A stretch of DNA of 54,962 nucleotides, taken from Caldilineaceae bacterium. Its GTDB lineage: Bacteria > Chloroflexota > Anaerolineae > Caldilineales > Caldilineaceae. Positions 2,330 to 53,878 of the stretch are shown here, piece after piece; the first letter of the stretch is position 1; the number at the start of each line of letters is the position of its first letter. The position numbers and the translations under genes were made by a program. The stretch spans positions 1-54,962 of the forward strand of contig JAGRCP010000067.1 in assembly GCA_020433455.1 (NCBI GenBank), in the 5' to 3' direction. The notes beneath the pieces were generated by a model. It was not told where the DNA came from, did not search any database, and worked only from the letters and a program-made list of their open reading frames with translations.

Positions 2330-2624
2330 GGCGATTCTCCGTTCTGTTCGAGCTGCCGCCGGCCATGGCGGGCACGATGGAGATTTTGTCCTTCTCGCCC
2401 ACGGGGGTGGCCAGGCCGTCCAGGGTGCGGATTTCGTCGTCGTTGACGAACACATTGATAAAGCGCTTCAGGTTGCCGTCGTCGTCCAGCAGACGCTCGG
2501 CCACGCCGGGGTATGCCGCGTCAACGGCCTGGATGAGGTCGGCGACATTGGCTCCGGCGACGTCAACTTTGGCCTGACCGCCGGTGAGGCGGCGAATGGG
2601 AGTGGGTACATAGACAGTTGCCAT
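2322..2624 (-). CDS. cysO: Ubiquitin-like sulfur carrier (CysO/MoaD/ThiS family) with masked GG
   Basis: Beta-grasp sulfur carrier of 100 aa, similar in layout to mycobacterial CysO (PTPIRRLTGGQ near the N-terminus, RFINVFVNDDEIR in the middle, ISIVPAMAGG near the C-terminus). The diglycine is at 89-90, but ten residues follow it (SSNRTENRRE). As encoded, the C-terminus cannot be adenylated until this tail is removed. The JAMM peptidase encoded at 3260-3919 is the obvious candidate processor, by analogy with QbsD acting on QbsE. The ATG at 2624 has a GAGGA site 10 bases upstream. The tail is encoded across the overlap with the adenylyltransferase start, so part of it may exist because of the overlap; a conserved tail in relatives would argue against that. 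Confidence 0.85.
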   Translation of the reverse strand: MATVYVPTPIRRLTGGQAKVDVAGANVADLIQAVDAAYPGVAERLLDDDGNLKRFINVFVNDDEIRTLDGLATPVGEKDKISIVPAMAGGSSNRTENRRE

Positions 2625-2662
2625 AACTGGTGATTCCTCGTGAGTCTGGTTGTTCCGTTGAA

Positions 2663-2746
2663 GGTGACTGTATGGGTTTCTCCGGGAGGGTCTGCAGAAA
2701 ACAGGCCGATTCCAGAGGAAAACTTTCCAGAGGTTATACAGTTACC
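2663..2746. repeat. Hairpin element family A, copy 1 (about 84 bp)
   Basis: Ends in an imperfect terminal inverted repeat, GGTGACTGTAT on the left and ATACAGTTACC on the right. It contains the family core CTCCGGGAGGGTCTGC (2680-2695). Related copies lie at about 28056-28140 and 51761-51836. It sits directly upstream of the carrier gene and may contain or displace that gene's promoter. Confidence 0.65.
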
Positions 2747-2770
2747 GTTGAAAAAAACTTGCCTGAAAGA

Positions 2771-2797
2771 GTTTGCCAATCAAATTTGCCAATCAAA
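2771..2797. repeat. Two tandem TTTGCCAATCAA units
   Basis: The 12-base word TTTGCCAATCAA occurs twice in direct repeat with one base between copies, next to the minus-strand terminator at 2800-2824. On the minus strand it reads TTGATTGGCAAA, so it could hold -35-like sequence for the carrier operon; no convincing -10 is fixed by it. Confidence 0.4.
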
Positions 2798-2799
2798 AA

Positions 2800-2824
2800 C
2801 GCCCCATCCGCTACGGATGAGGCG
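2800..2824 (-). terminator. Rho-independent terminator between the JAMM gene and cysO
   Basis: On the minus strand an 11-base stem CGCCTCATCCG / CGGATGGGGCG with a 3-base loop (one mismatched position) is followed by TTTTTG. It ends transcription coming from the JAMM peptidase gene, or from a leader in the spacer, before the carrier gene, so the carrier operon needs its own promoter. Confidence 0.65.
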
Positions 2825-2934
2825 TGACACGCGTACGACGCAGGCTACTGCTGTCCTGTTGCAAGCAACTCCGTCCTGGGAGCGCTTGTCAAGCGTATGC
2901 GTATGTCGAGTTTCCGGCCATCCGTTGCGTGCAT

Positions 2935-2976
2935 CAAAAACTGCGGGTAAGCCAGCGCCATGCTGACTCAGCCCGC
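2935..2976 (-). terminator. Second minus-strand terminator in the same spacer
   Basis: On the minus strand GCGGG, TGAG and CAGC pair with GCTG, CTTA and CCCGC around a 5-base loop, and the hairpin is followed by AGTTTTTG. It lies about 110 nt upstream of the terminator at 2800. Two terminators in series leave a 110-nt stretch between them that could be a small RNA or simply a doubled stop. Confidence 0.5.
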
Positions 2977-3168
2977 TATAGACACAAGCAACAGATTGTG
3001 GCGTAAGAAACTCGAACGATCATAGAAATTTAGTCGAATCAGAAAAACGGCGAACAGATAACGCAATTTCCGGGCGAGTATACTTGCTTGCGGTCAGGTT
3101 GTCAAACACGCGAAATGATGAATGCGGGGTTGCGGGGCGGCGGAGTGGCGGGGTCGCCATTTTTGGTA

Positions 3169-4876: not shown

Positions 4877-5377
4877 GTGTCGTACGCATATCAGCCCGTT
4901 ACCTTCAGCAAAGTCATGTTGACCCTGGACGGCTCCGGAGTTTCGCGCCAGGCCGCGCCCCAGGCTGTTGCCATCGCCAATCGCTTTGGCGGTCGGTTGA
5001 TTCTCTATTCGGTCATTCACAACCCCCACAGCGTGGTCTCGCATCTGCCTTTGCCGTCCACGGACGTGGATGCGCTGGGCGCGGGCATTGATCGCCGCCT
5101 CCATGCCGAAGCCGAGCGCATCGAAACCGTGCTGCGTTCGCTTGTGGAGGAACTGGGCATGCCGCCGGCGCGCGTTGATGTCGTGGTGGAGGCTCATACC
5201 GATGCCGCCGAATCGATTACCGCTTACGCCGCGGATAACGAGGTGGACCTGATCGTCATGGCGACTCACGGTCGTAGCGGACTGGGACGCACCCTGCGCG
5301 GCAGCGTCGCTGAAAGCGTGCTCCGCCAGGCGCATTGCCCCGTCATGTTGATTCGCGCAACCGAGGTGAAAATGTAG
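4877..5377 (+). CDS. Universal stress protein (UspA family) inside the TRAP operon
   Basis: Single-domain Usp protein, 166 aa, starting at GTG 4877 after AAAGGA. The ATP-binding pattern THGRSGLGRTLRGSVAE is near the C-terminus and has the G-x2-G-x9-GS form of ATP-binding family members. The N-terminus VMLTLDGSGVSRQA carries the usual first-strand Asp. The gene sits between the two TRAP membrane subunits. In Halomonas the ATP-binding Usp protein TeaD is encoded with the TeaABC TRAP system and regulates its transport, so a similar regulatory role is inferred here. An alternative start is the ATG at residue 14, but the GTG keeps the first beta strand. Confidence 0.85.
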   Translation: MSYAYQPVTFSKVMLTLDGSGVSRQAAPQAVAIANRFGGRLILYSVIHNPHSVVSHLPLPSTDVDALGAGIDRRLHAEAERIETVLRSLVEELGMPPARVDVVVEAHTDAAESITAYAADNEVDLIVMATHGRSGLGRTLRGSVAESVLRQAHCPVMLIRATEVKM

Positions 5378-5473
5378 AGCAAATGAGGCGCGATGCGCGA
5401 CAGAATCCGCCGCGCGTCACGCCTCAACTATTTACGCATCACGCCAATCGTTTGTTCAATGAGGGAGGCGCTT

Positions 5474-6805
5474 ATGGGTTTTGAATGGCTTGCGTTGTTA
5501 ATGTTTGTATTCTTCTTTGTTCTCATCCTCATCGGTTATCCCGTCGCCTTCTCTTTTGCCGGGACGTCGATTGCCTTCCTGCTGATTGGCCTGGCCGTAA
5601 ACGCTTTCGATCTGCGCCTGCTGAAGCTGTTGCCCAATCGCTGGTTCGGCACCATGTCCGACTTTACCCTGCTGGCGATTATCTTTTTCGTCTTTATGGG
5701 GGCCATTTTCGAGAAGTCGGGGCTGGCTGAACAGCTGTTGGAGACCGTGGGGCAGCTCATGGGCCCCATACGAGGCGGGCTTGCTCTGGCGGTGGTGCTG
5801 GTGGGGACGCTCCTGGCCGCGGCCACGGGCGTCGTTGCCGCGACGGTCATTGTCATGGGCCTCATTTCCCTGCCCATTATGCTGCGCTACGGCTACAATC
5901 ATCAACTGGCCACGGGCATCATTACCGCTTCGGGCACCATGGCTCAGCTCCTGCCGCCCAGCCTGGTGTTGGTGGTGCTGAGCGATCAGCTGGGCGTGGG
6001 CGTCGGGGATCTCTTTTTGGGCGCGCTTATCCCCGGCCTGATTCTCTCCGGTCTGTACGCGCTCTACGTAGTCTTTATCGCCTTCGTGCGTCCCCAGGAT
6101 GCGCCGGCCCTGCCGCCTGAGGCGCGTACCCTCAAAGGCCGCGCGCTCCTGCGCAAGACGCTGGTGGCCGTAGTGCCGCCCGTTCTGCTGATTTTTGCCG
6201 TGCTGGGCAGCATCTTTCTGGGCTGGGCCACGCCCACGGAATCGGGCGCCGTGGGTGCGGTAGGAGCCTGCATTCTTACTGCATTGAACCGTAACCTGAC
6301 CTGGAAGCTGCTCAAGGACGCGGCCCGGGCGACGGCCAACATTACGGCATTGGTCATTATGATTCTGTTTTGCTCTACCATGTTCGGCCTGGTCTTTGAC
6401 GGATTGGGCGGCCAGCGCTATGTCCAGAACCTGCTCACCAATCTGCCCGGCGGTTATTGGGGCTTCATCATCGTCGCCAACATCGTCATTTTTATACTGG
6501 GCATCAACCTGGAGTTCATCGAAATCAGCTTCATCGCTATGCCCCTGCTTGTGCCCGCGGCAGTGGACCTGGGCGTAAACCTGGTCTGGTTCGGCGTCAT
6601 GATGGCTATCAACCTGAACATGGCCTTTATTTCCCCGCCTGTGGGCTTTTCCCTCTTCTATCTCCAAAGCGTGGCCCCGCCCGAAGTGGAGACCATCGAT
6701 ATTCACAAGGGGGCGTTGCCGTTTATGGCGTTGCAGGCCATCGCGCTCATTATCGTCATCGTTTTTCCCCAGACCGTGGAGTGGTTGGTCCGCGTGGCCA
6801 TGTAG
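5474..6805 (+). CDS. dctM: TRAP transporter large membrane subunit (DctM)
   Basis: Large subunit (DctM, TakM-like) of the TRAP transporter, 443 aa and highly hydrophobic, expected to form about 12 membrane helices. ATG 5474 follows GAGGGAGG at 5 bases; an in-frame upstream ATG at 5393 lacks a ribosome-binding site and would add a non-hydrophobic leader. Sequences such as [26 protein letters not shown] and [12 protein letters not shown] are the recurring signatures of the family. It uses the sodium gradient with DctQ to move organic acids delivered by the binding protein. It is followed by a large branched hairpin and then by the convergent dctP. Confidence 0.9.
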
Positions 6806-20825: not shown

Positions 20826-20857
20826 GCCGCCCGGGAGCGCCGGACTCCAGTCCGGCA
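20826..20857. repeat. Repeat family B, copy 1, in the sdhA-sdhB spacer
   Basis: This 32-bp sequence, built around GCCGGACT/AGTCCGGC, is identical to 51667-51698. It forms a tight hairpin. A third, weaker copy is in the sdhB-sdhC spacer. Confidence 0.7.
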
Positions 20858-21847: not shown

Positions 21848-21876
21848 CTCTGGGAACGCCGGACGCCAGTCCGGCA
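21848..21876. repeat. Repeat family B, copy 2, in the sdhB-sdhC spacer
   Basis: A diverged copy of the GCCGGACTCCAGTCCGGC hairpin (here GCCGGACGCCAGTCCGGC). Two members of one repeat family therefore interrupt the sdh operon. Confidence 0.6.
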
Positions 21877-42935: not shown

Positions 42936-43607
42936 ATGAGCAGCTTTTCTGTGCGTGCGCTGTTGCAGGCGACGCCTTATTGCGCCAACGCTGGGGATGC
43001 TTCGCTGGACTGGCTGGCGCAGCAGGCAATTCAGCATCATTTCGCGGCGGGTGAGATCCTCTTTTTGGAGGGAGCGCCGTCGGCCGGCCTGTGGATGATC
43101 GAGCATGGTCGGGTCAAGGCATACAAACTTTCGCCTGATGGGCAGGAGTATATTCTGCGCTTTTTCGGCCCCGGCGAAACGTTCAATGACTTGGCGGCGC
43201 TGGATGGCGCGCCCAATGCGGTGAGCACCGTGGCGATTGCCGAGCTGTCGGCCTGGGTTATCTCCTGTCAGGCCTTTAGCGCCGCGCTGGAGATCGATCA
43301 TGCGCTGGCGCTGGCCGTCCTGAGAGGATTAACCGGACGGGTGCGCCATCTTGTGGGGCAGATGGAAGACCTTGCTCTGCGACCGGTGACGGCCCGGTTG
43401 GCCCGCTTTCTGCTGGAACAGGCGAACGATCCCACGCTGGCTCATCCGGCCGTCACCCGGGCGCTCATTGCCAATCATCTTGCCACCACGCCGGAGTCCG
43501 TGAGTCGCTCCTTGCGCGTGTTGGAAGACGCGGGCGCCATCCGCTTTGATCGCCACCTGATCGTCATTACCCGGCCGGATATCCTCCGTCGCCAGGCTCA
43601 ACTCTGA
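42936..43607 (+). CDS. Crp/Fnr-family transcriptional regulator
   Basis: Regulator of 223 aa with a cyclic-nucleotide-binding-like sensor domain (about 15-125), a long dimer helix and a winged helix at the C-terminus. The recognition helix TTPESVSRSLRVLEDAG contains E187, S190 and R191, the E-x-x-S-R pattern used by FNR-type proteins to read TTGAT half sites. The N-terminal cysteine cluster of FNR is missing (only C16 and C111 exist), so an oxygen-labile [4Fe-4S] sensor is unlikely; a DNR/NnrR-like heme or NO sensor is possible. Matching TTGAT-N4-ATCAA boxes are found at 50.8-50.9 kb. AAGGGA lies 10 bases before the ATG. Confidence 0.85.
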   Translation: MSSFSVRALLQATPYCANAGDASLDWLAQQAIQHHFAAGEILFLEGAPSAGLWMIEHGRVKAYKLSPDGQEYILRFFGPGETFNDLAALDGAPNAVSTVAIAELSAWVISCQAFSAALEIDHALALAVLRGLTGRVRHLVGQMEDLALRPVTARLARFLLEQANDPTLAHPAVTRALIANHLATTPESVSRSLRVLEDAGAIRFDRHLIVITRPDILRRQAQL

Positions 43608-48453: not shown

Positions 48454-48813
48454 TCAACTTTCTCTTGAATCATCGTTGTTCAAAATATCGCGCAGGACGA
48501 CCGCTTCATTGTGCGTTTCATCCTTGGCCGCATAGATCAGGGTCACCTTGCCCCGTGCGGCCATCTCCTTCAACTGGGCCAGGGCCGGGTTGTCTTTGAG
48601 TTCGGCCCGGTAGCGTTCCTGAAATTCGGGCCATTTGGCCGGATCGTGGCCGAACCACTTGCGCAGTTCGGTAGAGGGCGCCACGTCCTTCAGCCACAGA
48701 TCGAGTTGCGCTTTCTCCTTGGAGACGCCCCGGGGCCAGAGACGGTCAACCAGCACCCGCTTTCCGTCCGTGGGTTCAGCCGCCGCGTACGCACGTTTGA
48801 TGGAGACGTTCAT
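48454..48813 (-). CDS. DUF488 (YeaO-like) protein
   Basis: Protein of 119 aa starting SIKRAYAAAEPTDGKRVLVDR and continuing RLWPRGVSKEKAQLDLWLKDVAPSTELR in pieces typical of YeaO; the family WPRG motif and the C-terminal KVTLIYAAKDETHNEA are clear. The function of DUF488 proteins is unknown. ATG 48813 matches family length; upstream ATGs at 48852 and 48921 are rejected. A perfect 22-base inverted repeat lies just upstream. Confidence 0.82.
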   Translation of the reverse strand: MNVSIKRAYAAAEPTDGKRVLVDRLWPRGVSKEKAQLDLWLKDVAPSTELRKWFGHDPAKWPEFQERYRAELKDNPALAQLKEMAARGKVTLIYAAKDETHNEAVVLRDILNNDDSRES

Positions 48814-50157: not shown

Positions 50158-50290
50158 CCATGTGACTTTCCGGCGTAGTATTCTTCCTGGTTTTGCTGTA
50201 CGCCAACCGCACTTGTCATGCTGTCTGCCTGCGGGCGCAAAGCAATGAGGAATAGTGGATTAGTCCGAGTTCGCGAACCGCTGGATTTAG

Positions 50291-50704
50291 TTACTCGCTG
50301 CCGGTAGCAAAACGCTGCCGGAGCCAAAAGAAGATCATCCGCCAAACCAGCAGAAAGAGCCCGCCCAGCCCAATGGTGATCGCCATAAAGATGACGATAA
50401 TCGTCGCCTGTCCGTTGAGCCAGGCGCGCACAAGCAGCGCCAGGGGCGCGCCCACCAGCCAGGCGGTGAGGGCGCGCCACATGAACGTGCGCAGGGTCAT
50501 ACCGCGCGATAAAGTCAGCGCGCCCCAGAGCAGGGCCACCACGGTCCAGGGCAGCACAATTTCGGCCGAAGCGCTTAAGAGACGAGGCAGGGGATTGGCC
50601 GCTACCAGTCCATGCTCCATCTGGCCGATAAAGACAAAGAGCCCCAGGGTGATCCAATCGCCCGCGAGCAGGAGAATCGTTTGTCGTCCGAAATTTTTCA
50701 TCAT
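50291..50704 (-). CDS. DUF3054 membrane protein
   Basis: Integral membrane protein of 137 aa with four helices (about 10-28, 46-64, 80-95 and 100-122). LLLAGDWITLGLFVFIG and LPWTVVALLWGAL fit DUF3054, a family of unknown function found in Actinobacteria and Chloroflexota. It is divergent from the ferredoxin gene. An FNR-like box at 50786-50799 and a TATGAT -10 at 50758-50763 sit in proper positions for its transcription, so it may belong to the low-oxygen or NO response. Confidence 0.75.
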   Translation of the reverse strand: MMKNFGRQTILLLAGDWITLGLFVFIGQMEHGLVAANPLPRLLSASAEIVLPWTVVALLWGALTLSRGMTLRTFMWRALTAWLVGAPLALLVRAWLNGQATIIVIFMAITIGLGGLFLLVWRMIFFWLRQRFATGSE

Positions 50705-50757
50705 CAGCTTTGCTGTATTTCCGGTTTCGTTGAGGATTACCTGAATGGATGGCTGAA

Positions 50758-50799
50758 ATCATAGCCCAATTTTGTGCGTTCGGCCATGATTGGGATCAA
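50758..50799 (-). promoter_or_regulatory. FNR-like class II promoter of the DUF3054 gene
   Basis: ATGAT-TGGG-ATCAA (50786-50799) differs from the FNR consensus at one base. TATGAT on the minus strand (50763-50758) puts the box centre at about -41.5 if transcription starts near 50751. Confidence 0.55.
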
Positions 50800-50885
50800 G
50801 TTGCAGACTATTCCCGGCATAGGGCGGGATGCATGCAAAATTGAATCGTCATTCCAAGGACCAAAGAGCCGAAAAATCCCCGGAC

Positions 50886-50927
50886 TTGATTTAGATCAAG
50901 GCCGATCCGGGCCGCGCGTCGTATTCT
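50886..50927 (+). promoter_or_regulatory. Perfect FNR box and class II promoter of the ferredoxin operon
   Basis: TTGAT-TTAG-ATCAA (50886-50899) is a perfect FNR-type palindrome. TATTCT (50922-50927) lies where the -10 of a class II activated promoter belongs, with a start expected near 50934 and the ferredoxin ATG 45 bases later. Confidence 0.75.
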
Positions 50928-50978
50928 TGCCCTGCGACTGAGGTCGGGCGCTGGAATAGCGACAGGCGGATTACCCCT

Positions 50979-51245
50979 ATGTTTGATGAACTCTGGCTTC
51001 CCATAATCGACCGCATTCGCTGCACAGGTTGCGGGGATTGCGTGATCATCTGCCCTGCTCACGCTTTGGCATTGAAAGGCGGGAAGGCCGTCCTGGTTAA
51101 GCCATTGGCGTGCAATTATTGCGCCGACTGCGAATCGGTTTGCCCGACGGGAGCCGTCAGCTTGCCTTATCGGATTGTCCTGGCAGGCGAGATCGACTCG
51201 ACCGAGCTTGACAACGGCTCTGATCACATTTCTGCATCTGTGTAG
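50979..51245 (+). CDS. 2[4Fe-4S] ferredoxin
   Basis: Ferredoxin of 88 aa with two full cluster motifs: C15, C18, C21, C25 (CTGCGDCVIIC) and C45, C48, C51, C55 (CNYCADCESVC). A 25-residue tail follows the second cluster. It starts an FNR-controlled transcript, with a DUF2249 gene 141 bp downstream and an NnrS-like gene beyond. The context suggests electron transfer in anaerobic or nitrogen-oxide metabolism. AGGCGG lies 9 bases before the ATG. Confidence 0.88.
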   Translation: MFDELWLPIIDRIRCTGCGDCVIICPAHALALKGGKAVLVKPLACNYCADCESVCPTGAVSLPYRIVLAGEIDSTELDNGSDHISASV

Positions 51246-51386
51246 CTTAAAATTTTCAGGTTCTTGCGGAATTCATGCGGTCCGTTTTCTGCAACGCGGT
51301 GCGCTACGGCGCGCCTTCGCGCATCAATCACCTGCGTGAAATTCGGCTGGACCAATTTTTACAAACTTTTCGGAGGAAATTCAACC

Positions 51387-51623
51387 ATGAGTGAAGAGAC
51401 CGTTCTGGATATCCGCACCATCCATCCCATGCACCGTCATCCCATGATCTTCGAGCGGTTCGATGGGTTGGCCGGCGGTGAAAGCTTTGTCCTGGTCAAT
51501 GACCACGATCCCAAGCCCCTCTTCTATCAGTTTCAGGCCGAACGCTCGGGTCAGTTTACCTGGGAGTATCTGGAGCAGGGGCCTGAAGCGTGGCGGGTGG
51601 AGATCGGTCGGGCGACAGCCTAA
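51387..51623 (+). CDS. DUF2249 protein
   Basis: Small TusA-like protein of 78 aa: LDIRTIHPMHRHPMIFERFD, FVLVNDHDPKPLFYQF and WEYLEQGPEAWRVEI are the DUF2249 segments. These proteins are common next to denitrification and NO-response genes in bacteria, and their biochemical role is unknown. GGAGG precedes the ATG at 7 bases; a longer frame beginning at 51264 is rejected. Its position after the FNR-controlled ferredoxin supports a nitrogen-oxide or low-oxygen role. Confidence 0.85.
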   Translation: MSEETVLDIRTIHPMHRHPMIFERFDGLAGGESFVLVNDHDPKPLFYQFQAERSGQFTWEYLEQGPEAWRVEIGRATA

Positions 51624-51627
51624 GCGT

Positions 51628-51676
51628 AATTGTCCGCTTTCAAGTTAGCGGCTTGCTGTTTTGACCGCCGCCCGGG
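51628..51676. repeat. Repeat family C, copy 2
   Basis: Matches 6911-6959. It runs directly into the family B copy at 51667, so two repeat families are joined here. Confidence 0.5.
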
Positions 51677-51738
51677 AGCGCCGGACTCCAGTCCGGCAAA
51701 CCATGCCGAGCCGGAGCTTGGCGCTCCCGGCGACAAGC
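51667..51738. repeat. Repeat family B, copy 3, full form
   Basis: The first 32 bases (51667-51698) are identical to 20826-20857. An outer inverted repeat (CCGGGAGCGCC near the start, GGCGCTCCCGG near 51719-51730) encloses the inner hairpin, so this copy looks complete. Confidence 0.7.
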
Positions 51739-51760
51739 CTCAATCGCCCTGCTCTTTGCG

Positions 51761-51836
51761 GGTAACCATACAGATTCCTCCGGGAGGGTCTGCGGAGAAC
51801 GCGCTGCTTTTAGAGAGAAACCTCCCGGAAGACGTG
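51761..51836. repeat. Hairpin element family A, copy 3
   Basis: It begins GGTAACCATACAG, carries the core CTCCGGGAGGGTCTGC and the opposing arm AAACCTCCCGGAAG. It lies just before the NnrS-like gene and makes that gene's start uncertain. Confidence 0.65.
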
Positions 51837-51936
51837 CGGTGTCGTGGAAGCGTCTGCGTTGGCGACTGTTCGTCTGTCCGCTGCGTCGCGTCTCCCTGCA
51901 ATTTTCCGAATCGATAGAGAAGGTCGCATATCTTCT

Positions 51937-53073
51937 GTGAAGCAACAACCTGCATCCACGCAACCCGGCTCCCGCTACCGGCAACGCGCGCCGCTCATGC
52001 TCATGGCCGCGGCCGCGCTGTTGGCCGGACTTTGGGCCGGACTAATCCGCATCGGCTGGCCCTTGCCGCCGCTCCTCCCCCGCCTGCCCGCGGATCACGG
52101 GCCGCTTATGGTTTCCGGCTTTTTGGGCACGCTCATCGCACTGGAGCGGGCCGTGGCGCTGGCGCAGATCCGCAGGCAGCGCCTCTACTACCTGGCTCCG
52201 CTATTGGCCGGGCTGGGCGCAATTGCTTTCTTTTTCCCTGTGCCCATGGCCATCCCCAAGGGGTTGGGCGTGCTGGGCGCGTTGGGGATGCTGATTATCT
52301 TTGCGGTGATCATCCGCATGCAGACCACCACCGATCACGTGGTTATGGGCGCGGGCGCGCTTTTCTGGCTCATCGGCAACAGCCTCTGGCTGGCGGGGCG
52401 GCCTCTCTTTCAGGTCGTGCCCTGGTGGACGGGCTTTCTAGTGTTGACCATTGCCGGCGAACGGCTGGAACTGAGCCGGGTGCTCATGCTCACCCGGACG
52501 GCGCGGCTCTCGTTCCTGGGCATTATCGGACTTTTTGTTGTGGGGCTGCTGCTCTCGCTGGGGGCGGCGGATGGGGGAATCCGGCTGGCGGGCGTTGCGC
52601 TGATTGGACTGGGGCTCTGGCTTTTCCGCTTCGACATCGCCCGGCGCACCGTCCGCAAATGGGGCTTGACCCGCTATATCGCGGCCTGTCTGCTGCCGGG
52701 CTATTTTTGGCTGATTGCGGGCGGTTTGCTCTGGGCAGTCTATGGCGCGCAGTATGCGGCCGGCCCCATATACGATGCGCTCCTCCACACCATCTTTCTG
52801 GGCTTCGTCTTCTCCATGATTTTCGGTCACGCGCCCATCATTGTCCCCGCGATTGTGGGCTTGCAGATTCCCTACACGCCGATTTTCTATGTCCACCTGG
52901 CGCTGCTCCACCTCTCGCTCATCCTGCGCGTCAGCGGCGATCTCCTCTTCCTGCCCGGGATCCGGCGCTGGGGCGGATTGCTCAATGAGGTCGCGATTCT
53001 ACTCTTTCTGCTGGTAACGGTAATCGTGATCCGACGGGGAAGACAACGCGATAGCGCCCCTTCTCACCCCTGA
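51937..53073 (+). CDS. NnrS-like integral membrane protein
   Basis: Polytopic membrane protein, 378 aa from GTG 51937, with about 11-12 helices. HGPLMVSGFLGTLIALERAVAL and HTIFLGFVFSMIFGHAPIIVPA contain the histidines conserved in this NnrS-related family. NnrS proteins are heme- and copper-containing and linked to NO resistance and denitrification. An upstream GTG at 51844 would add 31 residues that look non-coding and partly overlap the end of a repeat element, so the shorter form is preferred without a strong ribosome-binding site for either. The gene lies downstream of the FNR-controlled ferredoxin and DUF2249 genes. Confidence 0.65.
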   Translation: MKQQPASTQPGSRYRQRAPLMLMAAAALLAGLWAGLIRIGWPLPPLLPRLPADHGPLMVSGFLGTLIALERAVALAQIRRQRLYYLAPLLAGLGAIAFFFPVPMAIPKGLGVLGALGMLIIFAVIIRMQTTTDHVVMGAGALFWLIGNSLWLAGRPLFQVVPWWTGFLVLTIAGERLELSRVLMLTRTARLSFLGIIGLFVVGLLLSLGAADGGIRLAGVALIGLGLWLFRFDIARRTVRKWGLTRYIAACLLPGYFWLIAGGLLWAVYGAQYAAGPIYDALLHTIFLGFVFSMIFGHAPIIVPAIVGLQIPYTPIFYVHLALLHLSLILRVSGDLLFLPGIRRWGGLLNEVAILLFLLVTVIVIRRGRQRDSAPSHP

Positions 53074-53114
53074 TCCGCCTGGACCGGAGCCTTTCTCCGC
53101 GCCGGGCCCAACTT

Positions 53115-53133
53115 CCCGGCCGCCGCGGCCGGG
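53115..53133. terminator. Hairpin between the NnrS-like and VIT genes
   Basis: CCCGGCCG and CGGCCGGG form a perfect 8-base stem with a 3-base loop between these convergent genes. Confidence 0.55.
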
Positions 53134-53185
53134 TGCTGGGGCAAAAATCCTTGAATTTCCTCCACAAACGCACCCCGGCCGCCTG

Positions 53186-53878
53186 CTAAACGACCGTGCC
53201 AAAGAGGCGGCCGACAATCGCCGTGGCGATCATGGCCAGTATGCCCCAGATGGTCACCCGGACCGCGCCGGTCAACATGCCGGCGCCGCCTGCCCGGGCC
53301 GCCAATCCGCCCAGGAGCGCCAGGCTCACAAGCGAGCCGATCGCGACCAGGAGGATGACCGACGCGGGAGGGCTGACGAGGGCCAGGATGAGGGGGACCG
53401 CCGCGCCCACGGCAAAGGTCGCGGCCGAGGCGACCGCAGCCTGGATGGGGCGGGCGACGTGAATTTCGGTTAGCCCCAACTCGTCCCGGGCGTGGGCCCC
53501 AAGCGCGTCGTGGGCCATCAACTGATCGGCTACCTGTTGCGCCAGGTCCGCGTCCAGCCCGCGCTCGACGTAGATGTCGGCCAGCTCCCGCCGTTCCCCC
53601 GTTGGGTCATCTTCCAGTTCCTGGCTCTCGCGCGCCAGGTCGGCCTTTTCCGTATCCGCTTGAGAGCTGACCGAGACATATTCGCCCGCGGCCATGGACA
53701 TGGCCCCTGCAACCAGGCTGGCGACGCCGGCTGTCAAAATTTCGCCTCTGGACGCGCTGGCGGCCGCGACGCCTACGACCAGGCTGGCCGTTGATAGAAT
53801 TCCGTCATTGGCTCCCAGAACAGAGGCGCGCAACCAGCCGATTCGTTCCGAATAGTGTCGTTCATGATGTCTGCTCAT
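53186..53878 (-). CDS. VIT1/CCC1-family iron/manganese transporter
   Basis: Membrane protein of 230 aa. LRASVLGANDGILSTASLVVGVAAA is the conserved first helix, and GAMSMAAGEYVSVSSQADTEKADLARE carries the metal-binding helix with its Glu residues, as in vacuolar iron transporters. Five hydrophobic segments are seen. The cytosolic loop (about 75-125) holds further acidic residues used for metal capture in the plant enzyme. AAAGGA lies before the ATG. Bacterial members export or sequester Fe2+ or Mn2+; the direction here is not known. Confidence 0.87.
   Translation of the reverse strand: MSRHHERHYSERIGWLRASVLGANDGILSTASLVVGVAAASASRGEILTAGVASLVAGAMSMAAGEYVSVSSQADTEKADLARESQELEDDPTGERRELADIYVERGLDADLAQQVADQLMAHDALGAHARDELGLTEIHVARPIQAAVASAATFAVGAAVPLILALVSPPASVILLVAIGSLVSLALLGGLAARAGGAGMLTGAVRVTIWGILAMIATAIVGRLFGTVV

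Follow-up and report, generated by a model that had tools for sequence, protein, structure and literature searches.

Among described systems, the closest to the locus analysed here is the DNR regulon of denitrifying Pseudomonas and beta-proteobacteria, in which, according to the accessible part of PMC1274295, a CRP/FNR activator acts through TTGATN4ATCAA on NO-related targets, as is proposed below; the same text gives DNR as binding a motif like TTGATnnnnATCAA, and FNR and DNR are described as reading the same kind of box (PMC5398030, accessible part). The targets of the DNR regulon are nir, nor and nos genes, whereas in the loci we have seen they are a ferredoxin, DUF59, DUF2249 and an unclassified heme-copper-fold protein, and the system described here belongs to the Chloroflexota. 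With the class II (FF-41.5) promoters of E. coli FNR, the locus shares the box, the -41.5 position and the E-x-x-S-R helix, whose Glu-209, Ser-212 and Arg-213 contact the box in E. coli (accessible part of PMC4505428); on the contrary, our candidate regulator lacks the cysteine cluster, thus Fe-S oxygen sensing is not expected. The HcpR regulon (frdX, hcp) likewise combines an NO-responsive CRP/FNR protein with a small ferredoxin-like target, but acts on wTGTGAN6TCACAw instead of TTGATN4ATCAA (PMC1274295, same part). NnrS (PF05940), to which the membrane protein of our locus is related by a profile-profile match, is also a large membrane protein of NO-responsive loci, but the P. fungorum cluster holds both proteins, with the true NnrS as a separate one. 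The mechanism, class II activation by DNR or FNR, is a known one; the lineage is new and a regulator is now proposed. In the literature searched, no description of a regulon of this kind in Chloroflexota and nothing on NnrS together with DUF2249 was found; PMC6264515, a metagenome survey of denitrification genes, holds nothing on this regulon in its accessible part.

Within the window (the whole stretch of 54,962 nucleotides analysed), a gap of 274 bp separates the DUF3054 gene from the ferredoxin gene and contains two divergent boxes. On the plus strand, TTGATTTAGATCAA (nt 50886–50899) shows 0 mismatches to TTGATN4ATCAA and is followed, exactly 22 bp 3', by the -10 hexamer TATTCT (nt 50922–50927; 4/6 to TATAAT), with a predicted start at 50934. 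On the minus strand, TTGATCCCAATCAT (nt 50786–50799) carries 1 mismatch and has the -10 hexamer TATGAT (nt 50758–50763; 5/6 to TATAAT) at exactly the same 22 bp on its 3' side, with a predicted start at 50751. Placing each -10 hexamer at -12 to -7, both boxes are centred at -41.5 of the respective predicted start, and the starts of the two boxes are exactly 100 bp apart. An earlier, sequence-only reading had reported these boxes, their mismatches and their distance correctly to the base, as well as their position about 41.5 bases from starts predicted in opposite directions; its proposal of back-to-back FNR-type control is borne out as class II FNR/DNR-type promoters both ways, the plus one being conserved in relatives. 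Predicted class II promoters of FNR/DNR type, facing both directions in the DUF3054-ferredoxin gap, are thus supported. The minus box has a C directly before it and GG directly after it, flanks shared by 7/13 and 8/13, respectively, of the relatives' TTGA-type boxes with an ATCA/GTCA partner. A scan of nt 50200–53200 for sigma-70 -35/-10 pairs returned none, an absence carrying little weight because shuffled sequences yield only 0.7.

It is the combination of box, exact N22 spacing and -10 that is rare, not the box alone. One-mismatch boxes are indeed common, with four in the window (the other three have no -10 at N22, being absent among the genome-wide matches), and boxes with at most 1 mismatch occur at 160 places genome-wide. 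The full pattern TTGATN4ATCAA-N22-TATNNT was found, admitting up to 2 mismatches, at 20 places in the 5,249,681 bases of this genome (a 172-contig draft): one with 0 mismatches (the plus box), two with 1 (the minus box and C169:1568) and 17 with 2. The reversed pattern gave 4 places, as a control differing in composition. Since all reversed-pattern controls (box alone, box-N22--10 and relatives' genomes) are unmatched for composition, weight was put on the genome-wide ranking and on simulation, where 6 Mb (one strand) of first-order Markov sequence, of either window or intergenic composition, contained zero box-N22-TATNNT matches at 1 mismatch or fewer. The remaining six perfect boxes of the genome all fall within open frames of at least 155 aa, and 16 of the other 18 box-N22-TATNNT places within one of 100 aa or more, counting both strands, an argument that is weak because the plus box also sits in a mechanical 139-aa frame. 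In eight relatives' genomes (relatives' genomes and loci are hereafter indicated by G and L numbers; L339 belongs to G156 and L289 to G080) the pattern occurred, at 1 mismatch or fewer, at 18 places; three of these (G156:C16, G080:C29 and G080:C11) precede a ferredoxin or Fe-S assembly gene and one (G158:C174) sits on a regulon contig. Zero such matches were present in G231, which has the membrane protein and no orthologous regulator.

On the plus strand, the first gene codes for a two-[4Fe-4S] ferredoxin of 88 aa (nt 50979–51245; Pfam Fer4 families), its order after the box being conserved, and the second for a DUF2249 protein of 78 aa (nt 51387–51623; PF10006, E 5.5e-32). A gap of 313 bp separates them from a membrane protein gene (378 aa, nt 51937–53073, plus strand). 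Inside the gap, a plus-strand terminator-like stem lies directly past DUF2249 (nt 51634–51651), a consensus match only, with 9 terminator-like sites in the 3-kb stretch against 3.7 in shuffles; it is followed by a strong REP-like repeat hairpin (nt 51667–51735, either strand; fold -48.9 kcal/mol, z -6.5). Because of these two elements, it is uncertain whether a single predicted transcript extends from the ferredoxin and DUF2249 genes through the membrane protein gene. The palindromic core of the REP-like repeat is present in three copies in the window (nt 20835–20856, 21854–21875 and 51676–51697). DUF2249 adjoins the membrane protein gene also in relatives, for example in L131, L340 and L333.

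Assignment of the membrane protein to NnrS by Pfam was rejected, as PF05940 gave no match at E 1e-3 nor at E 10, and no PF05940 protein was found anywhere in the genome. A profile-profile comparison with six NnrS-type sequences returned a probability of 96.6 (E 5.9e-10), and most of the AlphaFold2 model (pLDDT 94.9) could be matched to cbb3 oxidase subunit I (Z 29.1) as well as to NO reductases (Z 27.0 and 25.3). The protein is therefore predicted to have a heme-copper oxidase/NO-reductase-like fold and to be distantly related to NnrS, outside PF05940. Of the plus-strand transcript with ferredoxin, DUF2249 and an NnrS-like protein, as proposed by the sequence-only reading, the identities of the first two genes are confirmed by Pfam and the order of promoter and ferredoxin is conserved; the name NnrS does not hold in the strict sense, and the extension through the third gene is uncertain. 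The analysis indicates that heme-copper-fold membrane proteins of this family are widespread, with at least 552 related stretches in Chloroflexota, Nitrospirota, Nitrospinota, Proteobacteria and others; none of four members scanned had a Pfam family, and a search of the plasmid set returned just 'hypothetical protein' or no name.

Conservation of the plus promoter was evaluated in relatives' loci chosen, among the matches listed, solely for encoding the membrane protein, with the exception of L289, which was fetched by pattern. Including the window and L289, 13 distinct perfect boxes were present among the matches listed, 10 of them with TANNNT at exactly 22 bp; without these two, the ratio among the matches listed is 8/11. 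In L368, one of the three exceptions, TATCCT follows a further box, TTGACACGGGTCAA, at 22 bp. Of 26 oriented sites, with spacings from 10 to 34, no spacing besides N22 exceeds 2 sites. The same hexamer TATTCT at the identical N22 spacing is found in L333, L339 and L289, and box-N22 promoters precede a ferredoxin gene in L333, L337, L339, L289 and L398 and a DUF2249 gene in L340 and L343. In L333 the gene order is ferredoxin, Fe-S assembly-type protein, Mrp-like ATPase, membrane protein, 124-aa protein, DUF2249 and heme-copper-fold protein, where the second to fourth genes are presumptive names given by reading, except for PF01883, which was shown for the L132 homologue. Judged on these sequences, the plus side is a conserved regulon. 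Most membrane-protein loci have no such box, therefore several controls act on the family, this regulon among them, and CRP/FNR proteins of other types are found near the membrane protein gene in 36/165 relatives' loci (a few loci being counted twice). A different motif, ATGATN4ATCAT placed 22 bp before TACNAT (L122, L140, L153 and L142), was left uncounted, three sites being at or inside frame starts and that of L142 156 bp before one.

The best candidate for the cognate regulator is coded about 7 kb from the promoter pair (nt 42939–43607, plus strand); it is a CRP/FNR protein with a cNMP-binding fold (PF00027) and a Crp-type HTH (PF13545). The genome contains six clear CRP/FNR proteins, besides 13 weaker HTH matches, and an E-x-x-S-R recognition helix (ATTPESVSRSLRVL) occurs, among the six, solely in this one. 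FNR is an Fe-S oxygen sensor with an N-terminal cysteine cluster. No such cluster was seen in any of the six; the first 60 residues of the candidate include one cysteine and those of its L337 orthologue zero, thus making an FNR-type Fe-S sensor unlikely for this gene, and an oxygen-type FNR was set aside as the less likely regulator. Among solved structures, its best-ranked relatives are PDB 3h3z and 3fx3, both deposited as cyclic nucleotide-binding proteins, and, third, 3dkw, the DNR of P. aeruginosa. Orthologues are present in G156 (71%), G080 (64%) and L337, with L368 and L398 carrying more distant members of the same clade (tree support 0.999). From these features, nt 42939–43607 likely codes for the regulator of both boxes.

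Helix and box vary together within this clade, a pairing spotted post hoc. Members with the E-x-x-S-R helix (window protein, L337, L398, L368, L303 and L304) come from genomes that in 6/6 cases have TTGAT/TTGAC boxes at N22, the form in L368 being TTGAC...GTCAA. In some other members the helix is replaced by T-P-Q-T-I-S-N/V, and all 4/4 of those found (L189 and L203, placed in the tree, with L050 and L051 from a separate search) are accompanied by TTAAN6TTAA boxes (TTAAT/G-N4-GCTTAA) with the N22 spacing unchanged, lying directly past the regulator gene and before a ferredoxin gene, in some cases with a short gene in between. These boxes emerged from a search of five loci for any 5-4-5 palindrome with N22-TANNNT, which gave 17 sites, four being TTAA look-alikes and 13 unrelated by eye; the fifth locus, L191, gave zero. 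Since helix and box change together, the regulator family likely works through these sites, and we regard the covariation as good evidence of it.

As for the signal, gene contexts of the membrane protein family are of NO type: on C. necator pHG1 the homologue lies between norR-ytfE-norB and DUF2249-hemerythrin, and in P. fungorum beside NnrS, hemerythrin and DUF2249. In addition, expression of DUF2249 genes increases in H. mediterranei during denitrification (PMC11218638, accessible part), and Thermus DrpB contains the domain (PMC6282519, accessible part). NO is favoured over oxygen because of these contexts and of the missing cysteine cluster, and the regulon is probably DNR-like and NO-responsive.

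On the other side of the gap lies the gene of the DUF3054 protein (137 aa, hydrophobic by hydropathy; nt 50291–50704, minus strand; PF11255, E 2.5e-13, 50.8 bits against a cut-off of 25), the predicted transcription start and the start codon being 47 nt apart. Genes for a WYL regulator, DUF1761 and DUF488 follow on the minus strand with gaps of 76 to 134 bp, the DUF488 protein (nt 48454–48813; Pfam) being the fourth gene from the promoter. By its sequence features, the DUF3054 promoter looks real in this genome. When the 500 bp preceding DUF3054 were scanned uniformly in 52 distinct relatives' loci (21 belonging to the window's family, a further 28 to the class and 3 to membrane-protein genomes), 0/52 had a box followed by a -10 at N22, 49 of them offering at least 250 bp of upstream sequence and L028, L231 and L230 just 2, 44 and 178 bp. 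The last 3 loci counted come from 11 genomes behind twelve chosen membrane-protein loci, with and without box, of which 3/11 have DUF3054 at E 0.001 or better. Two one-mismatch boxes (counting either A or T as a match at the ends) facing DUF3054, with no -10, were seen in L046 at -211 and in L240 at the start codon. Even G156 and G080, which share the regulator and the plus box and have DUF3054 (52% and 46% identical), show no box promoter in front of it. The search for the box upstream of DUF3054 in relatives, suggested by the sequence-only reading, was thus negative; its assignment of DUF3054 to the same response retains the predicted promoter found here and, because of the 0/52, is limited to this genome at most, where membership is plausible, being unsupported outside.

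Proximity in a few lineages lends indirect support to a functional link between DUF3054 and the membrane protein. DUF3054 lies within 10 kb of the membrane protein gene in 6/48 other genomes having both genes (G269, G150, G169, G209, G187 and G153, of 4 lineages), against 0.24 expected, a count read by eye from match lists on draft contigs with the 10-kb cut-off set afterwards. In G269 the two genes are on the same strand, 35 bp apart. DUF488 stands beside the membrane protein gene in 11/165 relatives' loci, always on the same strand (a few loci being counted twice); of other window genes, WYL, DUF1761, C15 peptidase, epimerase and VIT1, taken as controls, gave 0, and KUP-like gave 3, acyl-CoA dehydrogenase 4 and isocitrate lyase 1.

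We hold it probable that the 274-bp gap works as two divergent class II promoters driven by the DNR-like protein of nt 42939–43607 and serving both the ferredoxin/DUF2249 and the DUF3054 sides. A dimer of this regulator, activated most likely by NO, would bind TTGATN4ATCAA at -41.5 and recruit RNA polymerase, taking over the role of a -35 element. Rightwards, it would turn on the ferredoxin and DUF2249 genes, perhaps together with the heme-copper-fold membrane protein, a putative set for nitrosative stress or Fe-S maintenance; leftwards, DUF3054, perhaps with the WYL regulator, DUF1761 and DUF488 behind it. Against this mechanism stand the plus-side -10, with just 4/6 to consensus, and the lack of a conserved minus box in all 52 DUF3054 relatives. 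The latter, along with the three further one-mismatch boxes of the window having no -10 at N22, would fit a function for the plus box only, the minus box and its -10 being a chance or decaying match and DUF3054 staying outside the regulon. This we consider unlikely, as the minus box combines N22, a 5/6 -10 and an apt distance from the start codon, is one of two one-mismatch matches in the genome, and had zero chance counterparts in the 6 Mb simulated. CRP/FNR proteins can also repress, and with boxes 100 bp apart within one short gap the regulator might do so through the minus box, so that DUF3054 would respond opposite to the ferredoxin; the box, however, is at -41.5, an activating position, clear of the -10 and of the start, and repression is very improbable.

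A further alternative concerns the protein and not the promoters. A true oxygen-sensing FNR could use the same box, given that FNR and DNR share their type of target sequence (PMC5398030, accessible part), and the regulon would then be a low-oxygen and not an NO response; none was seen, however, in the 172-contig draft, where all six clear CRP/FNR proteins are devoid of the cysteine cluster, the sole one with E-x-x-S-R has DNR among its three best solved relatives, and its clade accompanies NO-type gene sets. We rate an Fe-S FNR as quite unlikely and retain control by the DNR-like protein, which would provide a set of regulator, promoters and targets for a probable NO response in uncultured Chloroflexota and give DUF3054, for which the accessible parts of the literature searched describe no function, a testable context. 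The natural pair of helix and box variants also makes the recognition code of the FNR family directly testable. As a tentative and rather doubtful extension, DUF3054 may be a small membrane protein that partners the heme-copper-fold one in an NO-defence module of Chloroflexota, usually under other control and captured here by a second DNR promoter, and the regulator family may have switched its target from TTGAT to TTAAT by a Glu/Arg to Gln/Asn helix swap, keeping the same promoters and the 22-bp spacing.

Some additional arrangements were observed in relatives. L337 has, divergent from the regulator, a one-mismatch box with a gene behind it that we take to be flavodoxin-like (nt 2491–3066, minus strand), and a presumably protoglobin-like gene (nt 5044–5748, plus strand) directly before the ferredoxin promoter, both named by reading. 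A second back-to-back pair occurs in L130 (G219), where two TTGATCTAGCGCAA boxes (nt 588–601 and 613–626), each 22 bp from a -10, stand between the gene for a 76-aa protein and those for DUF2249 and the membrane protein; in its far half, the box resembles the NnrR motif quoted in the accessible part of PMC1274295.
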